From positions 1 to 20,054 of the forward strand of contig JAHBMJ010001942.1 of NCBI GenBank assembly GCA_018398765.1: a stretch of DNA of 20,054 bases, in the 5' to 3' direction. Source of the stretch: Chromera velia. Taxonomy: Eukaryota > Sar > Chromeraceae. Below the pieces are notes generated by a model that was given only the letters and a program-made list of their open reading frames with translations, was not told the origin of the DNA and ran no database searches. The translations under genes and the position numbers were made by a program. This document shows, one piece after another, positions 13,467-17,035 of the stretch (its first letter is position 1; the number at the start of each line of letters is the position of its first letter).

Positions 13467-14387
13467 ATGATGTTCCATCCGTCCAGCGGTCGAGAAGGTG
13501 AAAGGGTCCTCTCCCAGGAGGAGAGGGCTCTATTTCGTGCATCAGGAGCAGGGGCGCCGAACACAGTGCCTCACATGCCGGTTCCGGCCGGCATGAATCA
13601 TATAATAAGCGGACGTCTCGGGGAGACTGTGGCTACCCCTCCTGTGCAACCTACCCGGCCCCCCATGGCAGACCCAAACCCGAGGTTTTGTGACGGTTGC
13701 CAATCCAACTTGAGCCTTCGACGTTTTCGCTGCCTGTGTTGCCCAGATTTCGACCTCTGCGAGACCTGTGCGCCCCTTCATCCGCAAAGCCACCCCCTTG
13801 TCTTCATCCGTTCTCCCTGGCACCAACACTGGGACCGTGTGTTTGACATGACCACTCTTGTGAATAAGGACGGCCAACCGTGTGACTTCTCAGCTCCTCC
13901 CGACCATCATATCCTCAAAGATCTGCGCAACCGCATCGACCAAATTCTGTTCAATGAACAAGAAGCGATGACGAACTTTGTGGATGCACACAGAGAACGG
14001 ACACAGAGGACCCAGGGCCTGGCCCAGGGCAGCGCGCAACCGCTACCTCAAACAGACTCCACGGCGGCGGCGGCTCTGGCCAACCCGCCTCCCGTCGCCC
14101 CGCACAGAGTCAGCTCAACGATTTCCACTCCCTCCATCTTCCCAACACCACTCTTCACCCCCCCAACATTCGACCCCACGGCTTCCCACACCTTTCCCCG
14201 CGCCAGCCCTAATCCAGCAAGCCAACCCCCGCGCCAGCCCCTGCCCCCCCCGCCTGCGATGCTTCACTTAACCAGCGGTCGAGCCGGGCAGACCACCATG
14301 CCGCCGCCGCCCTCCTTCGGAATGGGGCACTTCTCGAGCGGTCGGACAGGCCAGGACGTTCTCCAAAGGAACACTCCTCCCAAGTGA
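13467..14387 (+). CDS. ZZ-type zinc-finger protein with four MxHxxSGRxG motifs; may be the N-terminal part of a fusion
   Basis: The frame opens at ATG 13467, with an in-frame TAA at 13452-13454 upstream, and runs 306 codons to a TGA at 14385-14387. Residues 75-109 form a ZZ zinc finger: C75-x2-C78, C89-x2-C92, then DLC98-x2-C101 and H105-x3-H109. ZZ fingers bind two zinc ions and usually mediate protein contacts, for example with ubiquitin-pathway or histone-tail ligands. A motif M-x-H-x2-SGR-x-G-[EQ] occurs four times, starting at residues 2, 43, 265 and 286, bracketing the finger. Residues 175-260 are Pro/Ser/Thr-rich and probably disordered. The 66 bases to the next ATG stay in the same frame without any stop, so the TGA may not end the protein (see findings). 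A minority alternative is removal of the TGA by a 105-nt intron, 14341-14445. Confidence 0.8.
   Translation: MMFHPSSGREGERVLSQEERALFRASGAGAPNTVPHMPVPAGMNHIISGRLGETVATPPVQPTRPPMADPNPRFCDGCQSNLSLRRFRCLCCPDFDLCETCAPLHPQSHPLVFIRSPWHQHWDRVFDMTTLVNKDGQPCDFSAPPDHHILKDLRNRIDQILFNEQEAMTNFVDAHRERTQRTQGLAQGSAQPLPQTDSTAAAALANPPPVAPHRVSSTISTPSIFPTPLFTPPTFDPTASHTFPRASPNPASQPPRQPLPPPPAMLHLTSGRAGQTTMPPPPSFGMGHFSSGRTGQDVLQRNTPPK
14385..14387 (+). other. In-frame UGA between ZZ-finger and deiodinase-like domains
   Basis: The codon follows TPPK and is followed by C. Reading on in the same frame gives HSSQQPSSPPLPPSEFL and CTEDQ, then the Met codon at 14454, with no stop. It can be a true stop, a second selenocysteine or readthrough codon, or lie in an intron. 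Confidence 0.5.
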
Positions 14388-14453
14388 CACAGCAGCCAGC
14401 AACCGAGTTCCCCCCCTCTCCCTCCGTCCGAATTTCTCTGTACAGAGGATCAG

Positions 14454-15356
14454 ATGAGATGGCTGATGGAGAGCGAAAGAGAGCTTCGGCTGTCCGAAGA
14501 GGTCCAAGAAAAGTTCCGAATCCACGAAAGAGAGCCAGAGAGAGGAGAGGAGGATCATGGGAAGTCATGGCTGGAGGTGGTGGAGGAAATCCAGGAATAC
14601 CTAATCGACCAGTGTTCTCACATTCTCCCTCACCAGAAGGAAGCCGCTCTGTACCAATTTCGCATCGGTCACGTCCTCTTTCCCTCCCTTTCCGGCATAT
14701 CCATTCAATCCAAATTCAACCGTGCAGGTCCCTGTCCAGTTGCGGAGGGGACCCTCCTCTCCTCTGACATTCCCCTCGCTTCCGTCTCTTCCTTCTCCCA
14801 TCTGTGCGACACCAGTCTCTTCTCTTTCCTTGACCATCCTGGATCGAAGAGAGTCGGGATCGTCACAGGGTCTCATTCCTGACCCCCGATTCGGGCCCTC
14901 GTCCCCTTCTTGGTCTCTCTCTGTCAAGAGGCCAATCAGCAAGGGTGTGGACTCCTCTTCATCTACATCGAGGAGGCCCACGCAGAGGACGAGTGGCCCA
15001 TCAGGTCGGGGAGGTGCAACAACGGAAGGGGACCTGTGAGGGTCATGCAGACGAAAACACTGGAGTCACGCAGGGCGGCAGCTCGCGACTTCATTTCAAC
15101 CTTCTCCTTCTCGGTCCCAGTGGTCATAGACCCCCCCCCTTCTGCTCTCCCATCAGATTCCCCCCCCCCGACAGTCTCTGAGGACCCGTGCAGTCTTTCC
15201 GAGGGCCCCTTCAGTGCCGCATTCAAGCCCTGGCCCCTCCGACTGATGGTCTTCGAAGGCCGACGCCTCATCCAAGCCAGCGCCCCCCGAAGTGCCTCTG
15301 TTGAACCTCTACTGCACCCGTTTCGCGACGCGGTCCTTTACGGGCTCCAGAAGTAG
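14454..15356 (+). CDS. Iodothyronine-deiodinase-like selenoprotein (in-frame UGA read as selenocysteine)
   Basis: The frame 14454-15356 is 300 residues if the UGA at 14880-14882 (residue 143) is read as selenocysteine. It ends in TAG. The UGA sits in GIVTGSHS-U-PPIRALVPFL, which matches the deiodinase active-site pattern G-S-x-[ST]-U-P-P followed by a helix. Thirty residues on, LLFIYIEEAHAEDEWPI (167-183) is the family's most diagnostic block, including the conserved His of EEAH. TLESRRAAARDFI and a PVVID strand follow in the usual order, then PLRLMVFEGRRLI near the C-terminus. These enzymes have a thioredoxin fold; animal members remove iodine from thyroid hormones. Homologues in protists exist, with unknown substrates, so a peroxidase or other redox role is possible. 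The first 60 residues are charged and helical. Pro/Ser-rich inserts (about residues 224-245) exceed the usual length. The region upstream is in frame with the ZZ-finger gene, so the ATG at 14454 may be internal. Confidence 0.75.
14880..14882 (+). other. Selenocysteine UGA codon at the deiodinase-like active site
   Basis: TGA is followed by C and lies exactly where the deiodinase family has its catalytic Sec (or Cys). The frame is open for 142 codons before it and 157 codons after it, and the family signature continues directly across it. Other genes in the window (the RCC1-repeat and two-helix membrane proteins) end in TGA, so UGA is not generally reassigned. Confidence 0.75.
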
Positions 15357-15494
15357 ACGAAGCAATCGAAAAGCATGATTAGTCCACGAAATCACAGCAG
15401 AGGGAGGGAGAGGAGTCCGATCCCTGGGGTGTCCCCTGGCTGCGGCCCTTCTATGTTCGTCCTTTCAAGCGTGCAGATTCGCGAAGAGTGACTG

Positions 15495-15558
15495 AAGGCG
15501 TTCACGAAGCGAGGAGGGTAAACCGACCTGGAGCCTCCTCGCTGACTCCATCCGCCTT
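15495..15558 (+). promoter_or_regulatory. SECIS-like hairpin in the 3' UTR
   Basis: About 140 nt after the TAG, the RNA can fold as follows. A lower helix AAGGCG (15495-15500) pairs with CGCCTT (15553-15558). An internal loop TTCA / TCCATC follows, then a CGA (15505-15507) facing GAC (15544-15546), allowing tandem sheared G-A pairs. A perfect 10-bp upper helix AGCGAGGAGG (15508-15517) pairs with CCTCCTCGCT (15534-15543). The 16-nt apical loop has AAA at 15520-15522, twelve nt after the GA. This is the layout and spacing of a eukaryotic SECIS. The odd point is ACGA where AUGA is canonical; a GGGA variant is known from Toxoplasma, so the U position can vary. A possible CC-GG mini-stem after AAA would make it form 2. 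Confidence 0.55.
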
Positions 15559-17035
15559 TGCTTTTTGCACTATCGTGTTGATCGCATTGCTTGGGGACCA
15601 CTGTAATTCATCTCAGAATCATCTGATCGATCTGAATCAAGTGTATCAGTGCCAGACTGAGTGCTGTACCACTGTACCATCCTTCTGACTCCTTAAATTA
15701 TTTTTCAGCAGAAATGAAGGATATTCGCGGTACCGGGAATACCGTTTCAAACTAAAAATAATAGAAAGCCTGCATGACCTTTAAAATGATTCTAGCATAG
15801 GCTAGCATAAGCCAAAGCCCCCGTCAAAACTCAAAAACAGGCTTAAAGGGCTCCAACCTTGGCAAAACAGGTCCTAATTCATAATTACTTCAGTGTCTTG
15901 TATTGTTAACGTTTCTTCACAGTTTCATAAGTAAATTTAAGTTCATAAAATTTATTGATTTTTTTTCTATAACCTATGCACGATTATTATTGTTATAACA
16001 CTATACATAAAAAATTTGTATAAAAACAATTGAACAAATAAACGCATATAAAGTTATCATACACTGTCACACTCGATCATTTAAATACATTAAGAAAAAA
16101 AAAAGATTCAGAAATACATGGTTTTTAATCGTCTTACATCGTCTCTTACAGACTCGAACAGTCAAAAAATCTGAAAGGGAAAAACTCCTATACGAATTAC
16201 TAAGTTCGGATTCTTAGGGGCCATTAGGAACTCGCTAGGGAACTCGTACATTAGGCTGGGGCTAGGGCTGGGGTCGGTTGGCTGCCCCCAGCCGTGGGCG
16301 GTGTGGGGCCCCAGCCCCCCGCCACGGACTGCATGGTGGTGTGCGTACAGTGCGCGCTTAGACATCGACTTATATAATTCGCTGTGTACATGTAAATACT
16401 CGAACGATGGTTTCCTTCCATAGCTATACTTACTTCATATATTCGATAGGATGTATATATCCAGTACACCTTTCCATCTATATTAGATGGCATCTCATGT
16501 TGGGATGCTGCATGTACGGTTTGCGTGGATTCCGATCTCTCCATATATATACTGATACTTAATAGCCACCATGTATTAATATATGTGCCGGATTCGCAAC
16601 GGGAACTCTGTCGATGATCAACAATCTTTTGATCGGTGTTGCGTAGGAAAGTTCAACACGTACATCGATCTTCGTAGGCTCTCCATGCACATGATTTCAG
16701 AGCGCCTTCCAATTCTTCAGTGCTGCAGTTCGATTCAAGGCCCCTGAGTCTCCTTTTCTATGTGTATATACGTATCCGATTGAAGATAAATTGCGCAGTT
16801 GTTCTGATGTCTCTTTTTCTCTTTGCCGCTCACTCTCGGCAAGCATGGGGCTTCGCACGTTGCTGTCATAGCCCAGGTTAGCACACCTCCATCATCAGCT
16901 CTTCATGATGTTCTGTTCTCCTTCTTTCGATTTATTTGCTACATTCTTTATCCCTATTCCCATCTCCTTTACGTGCGCGCGTGCAGAAGGGCATGCAAAC
17001 TGCATCGCTTGAGGATCACGTTGGGTGCGTCTGGC
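15559..17035. other. Intergenic region without a supported gene
   Basis: AT-rich from about 15690 to 16200, with no coding frame of note. A GC-rich patch at 16254-16323 contains GGCTGGGG and CCCCAGCC arms that can form a hairpin. TATATA runs recur at 16450-16550. The stretch 16800-17035 has a pyrimidine-rich part and a 113-codon frame with no recognisable content. Confidence 0.5.

Follow-up and report, generated by a model that had tools for sequence, protein, structure and literature searches.

The window, a stretch of 20,054 nucleotides, is one entire contig of the 178-Mb, eukaryote-like and intron-bearing genome of Chromera velia. Its plus strand carries a deiodinase-like ORF (14454-15356) of 300 residues, counted with an in-frame TGA read as selenocysteine (Sec) and with TAG (15354-15356) as the predicted terminator, preceded in the same frame by a ZZ zinc-finger ORF and followed by a SECIS-like element. 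The preliminary description of this DNA had placed 14454-14882 and 14910-15356 in one phase, interrupted by a single TGA. This was confirmed: TGA 14880-14882, which falls in the catalytic column of the deiodinases and would encode Sec143, is the sole stop between 14454 and the TAG, and another 157 codons are open after it. Both signature blocks of the deiodinases, noticed at the same time, are present in the read-through protein, which contains GSHS-U143-PPIRAL and then IYIEEAHAEDEW starting at residue 170; YIEEAHAEDEW at residues 171-181 represents the YI[ED]EAH..D.W block of the family. The limits first given for the gene (14454 to 15356) stood in part. The read-through frame is real, while 14454 marks no more than the first ATG to follow an earlier TGA. 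Apart from that codon, TGA 14385-14387, the frame extends without a stop back to 13467, so that the gene may start further upstream and be longer.

Relationship to the deiodinase family

A Pfam search of the joined frame, set beforehand as a test, gave a match to PF00837 (T4_deiodinase) above the cut-off (35.3 bits versus 27, E 9.8e-9). The match covers residues 124-226, spans the TGA and aligns the UGA to the Sec/Cys column. Among the matches listed in an exon-wise search of the genome, the deiodinase-like ORF was the sole one to this family. When PDB sequences were searched with phmmer, DIO2 (9h48, E 6.1e-5) and DIO3 (4tr3, E 0.0026) came first, both of them Sec-to-Cys mutants at the catalytic position according to the entry titles, and the TGA 14880 codon lay opposite that position in both, gap-free. 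Because homology is contiguous on both flanks, an intron over TGA 14880-14882 is disfavoured.

The AlphaFold model of the protein, with the bacterial relatives as input alignment, had a mean pLDDT of 64.7. Mouse DIO2 and DIO3 were ranked at the top by Foldseek with this predicted model. With VIA-align, DIO2 led (Z 14.2) and DIO3 was found at rank 35 (Z 13.0), with peroxiredoxins in between; as these lie less than 1 Z below DIO2, the fold alone is not specific for deiodinases.

A single scan covering genomes of bacteria and archaea yielded 23 relatives (loci L021-L043) from Acidobacteria and Planctomycetes, to which the identity of the Chromera protein is 27-33%. One of the 23 loci (L031), with its frame broken ahead of the motif, was not scored. 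The motif could be read in the other 22: TGA was found at the same Sec codon in 21 (20 from Acidobacteria and one from Planctomycetota), and Cys in one, from Planctomycetes. Relative L030, shortened by a later TGA, was dropped from the profile of 21 relatives and retained in the codon count, the tree and the residue alignment. A profile of the deiodinase-like protein with the 21 relatives matched DIO3 with E 9.5e-34 and DIO2 with E 4.7e-32, values carried mostly by its bacterial rows. The NCBIfam model NF038285 (deiodinase_rel) scored 41 bits, far below its cut-off of 250, and in a 25-row tree the protein stood on a saturated branch, too divergent to be placed. In viral contigs, 27 stretches fitted a pattern and none was a relative.

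Common to the protein, DIO2, DIO3 and all 22 bacterial rows of the alignment are the Sec column, the Tyr, Glu and His of YIEEAH, the Trp, an Asp and the LEDR Arg. In the Chromera protein, Thr stands where QHR has its His, and Pro at the basic position of GG[RK]GP, which places the protein outside the iodothyronine deiodinases in the strict sense; among the bacterial rows this His occurs in 0/22 and the Arg in 1/22. Since both of these residues, which we take to be thyroid-hormone contacts, are absent, the protein was assigned to the deiodinase family in its broad sense. Judged from its sequence, it is likelier to be a Sec-dependent thioredoxin-fold reductase than a true iodothyronine deiodinase.

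Selenocysteine machinery and SECIS-like elements

A tRNA-Sec with anticodon TCA was found in the genome (69.4 bits, cut-off 47), in agreement with ARAGORN, together with SelD (152.8 bits, cut-off 125). The SelD (selenophosphate synthetase) locus at G000:C1230:23833-25619 was matched as three pieces and has Cys in its active site (GCACK) in place of Sec. SepSecS gave no match in an exon-wise search of the genome, which by its nature does not prove absence.

Protein searches also revealed two further genes with an in-frame TGA in a place typical of Sec, one SelT-like (L004, Rdx 42.4 bits) and one a Sep15/SelM gene (L011, 76.5 bits). A SelW-like exon with an in-frame TGA, VKVSIQFCGGUGYDP (L019, on G000:C29), is absent from the Rdx search list; its 32-residue piece has an Rdx score of 17.7 bits, under the cut-off of 22.6, and the remaining exons were guessed by eye. 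L005 was rejected as a Sec gene, being a Cys Rdx protein. Five genome matches to GPx have no internal stop, and in the four GPx loci examined no Sec was read. In the frame read for the GPx-like proteins at G000:C3586 and C1238 (L009 and L006), the usual catalytic position is occupied by a residue other than Cys or Sec. The four matches to MsrA, all of them exon pieces, lack TGA, and one contains TAG.

The SelT-like frame, like the deiodinase frame, ends in TAG, and the SelM-like and SelW-like frames end in TAA (for SelW, with a last exon chosen by eye). Seven non-Sec frames, including RCC1 and a 113-residue ORF of the window, end in TGA, some of them maybe at an intron. With seven non-Sec frames ending in TGA and the four Sec frames in TAA or TAG, UGA is probably not generally reassigned in this genome.

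The SECIS-like element is located at 15495-15558 on the plus strand, in the stretch 3' of TAG 15354-15356 that would form the 3' UTR. It is form II-like with an apical stem of two pairs. The 5' strand of its quartet (15504-15507) reads ACGA for AUGA and the 3' strand is TGA 15543-15545; GTAAA at 15518-15522 provides an unpaired A run in the apical bulge. The z-score against shuffles is -2.97, and 2/200 shuffles fold equally well. A SECIS scan for a helix flanked by GA/TGA with unpaired AA gave one match on the plus strand of the deiodinase locus (L001). The elements of the deiodinase, SelT and SelM genes depart from the canonical AUGA in that their quartet has CGA as its 5' strand. A quartet variant is proposed in which 5' CGA stands for UGA, the tandem G.A/A.G pairs are kept and the usual U.U becomes C.C or C.U. 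Rfam scans, run with no positive control, detected no SECIS family, neither at E up to 5 over the whole window nor at E up to 10 in 15357-15700 and in the loci of SelT, SelM and SelW.

The SECIS core of Toxoplasma is GGGA. Neither this GGGA SECIS nor an ACGA-core SECIS was found in openly licensed PMC papers, and as these alone make up the literature covered, its silence is weak evidence of novelty. Excerpts of one such paper describe the Toxoplasma SECIS as non-canonical (PMC11431864).

At the SelT locus, the better of two scan matches has the ACGA, helix, GTAAA and TGA of the deiodinase element. At the SelM locus, where only a relaxed scan gave matches, the better candidate has ACGA (-12.2 kcal/mol) and the second a canonical TGA start (-10.3). 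Against shuffles, the z-scores were -1.13 for SelT, 0.24 for SelM and -0.16 for SelW, so that a fold clearly better than shuffled sequence is seen in the deiodinase element only; the SelW element, folded without constraint, is not SECIS-shaped. A background scan of 89,164 bases of other loci on both strands, counted at -12 kcal/mol or better (the loci of interest at -9), gave one match, without CGAA and GTAAA combined. The loci outside this background, namely those of interest and L005, hold further matches within the -12 limit that lie away from any Sec gene or differ from the element, for example in L005 (-16.4 and -13.6), on the minus strand of L001 (-15.3) and as the second match of L004 (-15.3). 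The simple scan thus also matches elsewhere in the searched loci and is not specific alone. A covariance model with C masked found the deiodinase, SelT and SelM elements and no others in 61,834 bases, a result that is circular for those three, and the near single-element covariance model R1 matched itself only. MAFFT gave useless alignments of both raw and N-masked elements, and interpolated seeds were used for that reason.

For the whole genome, the pattern ACGAN{9,12}GTAAAN{18,30}CTGA gave 128 matches. Three of the 100 listed passed a fold filter: the deiodinase element, the SelT element and C29:24114 (43 rows, picked by eye, were scored at first, and afterwards all 100). The last of these lies downstream of the SelW-like exon, at a distance of about 3.3 kb in the genome (core at 3515 of L019). 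This RNA signal leading to an unseen SelW-like exon is the strongest support for the ACGA variant; since the SelW locus was fetched for its ACGA, it is no test of ACGA against AUGA. In the ATGA control, 0/65 scored rows passed the filter (from 100 of 376 matches listed, near-identical repeat copies excluded), and in the CTGAT control 2/32 did (from 100 of 158 listed, repeat copies excluded), with no Sec gene recognised by eye upstream of these two. The figures of the ACGA and ATGA surveys of the genome hold for the matches listed, which run up to a certain contig number. A promising ACGA match, C157:49450, failed the fold filter; the frame there reads by eye like alpha-galactosidase.

The zinc-finger frame upstream

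The ZZ zinc-finger ORF (13467-14387, plus strand; ZZ 23.8 bits, cut-off 21.4) is possibly the N-terminal part of the deiodinase-like protein. It ends at TGA 14385-14387, either its stop or a second Sec codon, and from there 22 open codons (14388-14453) lead to the deiodinase ATG. By eye, a short motif resembling [MH]-x-H-x-x-SGR-x-G[EQ] can be seen about four times in its translation. The ZZ ORF recurs, together with the beginning of the deiodinase ORF, as a duplicate at G000:C3747:54453-55394 (L045), with 54% identity over residues 22-329; this copy then enters a 5,000-base N run that hides the deiodinase part. Its linker likewise contains a single in-frame TGA, at a different aligned codon: the TGA follows VLQR by 5 codons in one copy and by 10 in the other, and the linker from VLQR to the ATG measures 28 and 27 codons. 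In a frame test, the 48 bases upstream of the ATG scored 12 in the deiodinase frame versus 2 and -2 in the others, with 9% of simulated mutants scoring equally; over 27 bases the scores were 12, 8 and 11, a weak result.

The chance is close to even that ZZ and deiodinase are separate genes lying side by side, or an operon-like pair resolved by trans-splicing, that they were duplicated together, and that UGA 14880 alone encodes Sec. Both copies have a TGA that ends the ZZ frame and an ATG that starts the deiodinase, and a pyrimidine-rich tract with AG stands before the ATG. Against this speak the frame kept in both copies with no further stops, and the very short gap.

Nearly as probable is a single fusion selenoprotein, in which UGA 14385 and UGA 14880 would both be read as Sec, the first perhaps partly, and ZZ-only and ZZ-deiodinase products would arise from one mRNA. 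The two ORFs share a frame that is open over the 22 codons from TGA to ATG, the duplicate has the same order and likewise one in-frame TGA, linkers of 28 and 27 codons indicate that the frame has been kept, and the 48 bases before the ATG score highest in the deiodinase frame. With only 66 and 48 bases between TGA and ATG in the two copies, separate transcription units hardly fit unless trans-spliced, and if one mRNA contains both ORFs, the SECIS should act on both UGAs. However, the linker TGAs of the two copies fall on different aligned codons, the frame test is weak, and the Pro/Ser-rich linker offers no obvious role for Sec. The deiodinase ATG is moreover conserved in both copies, and the deiodinase part of the duplicate is hidden by the N run.

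An intron that removes the upstream TGA and joins ZZ to a deiodinase with one Sec, 96 bases long here and 93 in the duplicate, is improbable. The GT (GTTCT) of both copies and the CAG before the ATG would allow a phase 0 splice, but measured by the usual consensus, which may not be that of this genome, GTTCT makes a poor donor. In addition, the copies differ at two of the first 12 bases, and both differences leave V-L-Q-R unchanged, as coding sequence would.

Interpretation and comparison with known systems

The locus is very probably a genuine eukaryotic deiodinase-family selenoprotein gene, in which UGA 14880 is read as Sec by means of tRNA-Sec and the SECIS element at 15495-15558. We infer this recoding from the frame, the homology, the catalytic column, the predicted fold, the tRNA-Sec and the recurrence of SECIS-like elements. 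The initial proposal of a deiodinase-like selenoprotein with an active-site UGA is thereby supported by PF00837, tRNA-Sec, SelD, the other Sec-like genes and the SECIS-like element. That the ORF is instead a pseudogene, or TGA 14880 an ordinary stop followed by decaying sequence, as the divergence of the protein and the missing C-terminal GP motif of the other rows shown could suggest, is very improbable given the family-invariant residues beyond the TGA, the 157 codons still open and the SECIS-like element after the ORF.

For the selenoprotein gene, the following mechanism can be envisaged. During translation, tRNA-Sec would decode UGA 14880 as selenocysteine, directed by the CGA-type SECIS downstream of the TAG. 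The product would be a thioredoxin-fold reductase with the family core of Sec, Tyr, Glu, His and Trp, in which the Tyr-Glu-His cluster may hold a peroxide or carbon-halogen bond for attack by Sec, with formation of a selenenyl intermediate that a cellular thiol would then reduce. The substrate is most likely a small halogenated or oxidised compound, and action on thyroid hormone is unlikely. A more far-reaching scenario, which we regard as rather unlikely, is that the lineage has moved to a CGA-type SECIS quartet (C.C/C.U for U.U) with no Rfam match and in this way makes a two-UGA ZZ-deiodinase fusion, whose first UGA would be a selenium-dependent switch between a ZZ-only product and the full reductase.

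Should the CGA core prove general in this lineage, some of the selenoproteins there may have escaped surveys built on AUGA, and wider pairing rules would have to be allowed for recognition by the SECIS-binding protein. A two-UGA fusion is directly testable at the upstream TGA, which is found in the duplicate as well. Thyroid hormone is what deiodinases are known for, but Sec-containing relatives exist in organisms without a thyroid, and a divergent member that lacks the animal substrate residues helps to ask what these proteins act on.

That deiodinase-like Sec proteins occur outside animals, as stated in the preliminary description, agrees with the literature as far as excerpts of the sources go, which report Sec deiodinase homologues in Dictyostelium (PMC2375036), algae (PMC7539508) and marine microbes (PMC2398784). 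Null mutants of the Dictyostelium homologue still have normal DIF dechlorinase activity, according to the excerpts of PMC3205185. On Chromera and selenoproteins, openly licensed PMC papers gave work on chloroplast proteomes only.

With the iodothyronine deiodinases DIO1-3 the Chromera velia protein has in common the thioredoxin fold (predicted here), Sec in GS-x-T/S-U-PP, the YIEEAH-D-W block and the conserved Arg and Asp. It differs from them in Thr for the QHR His, Pro for the GG[RK]GP basic residue, a Pro-rich insert of about 21 residues and the possible ZZ fusion. The bacterial deiodinase-like selenoproteins of Acidobacteria and Planctomycetes (NF038285) are similar in the core, the Sec codon, the lack of the animal QHR His and the near absence of the Arg. 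In contrast to them, the Chromera protein stays under the NF038285 cut-off and its gene is followed 3' by a eukaryotic SECIS-like element. This element resembles the eukaryotic SECIS with AUGA core in its helix, its G.A/A.G tandem, the unpaired A run (here 12-13 bases after CGA) and the 3'-side GA, whereas its 5' strand has CGA and not UGA. The deiodinase-like selenoproteins of Dictyostelium and algae are likewise Sec DIO homologues of unicellular eukaryotes; their descriptions, on which alone this comparison is based, mention neither a ZZ fusion nor a CGA-type SECIS in the excerpts of PMC2375036 and PMC7539508. The protein itself is of an already known kind, a Sec deiodinase homologue, while the SECIS variant and the possible ZZ fusion are new.
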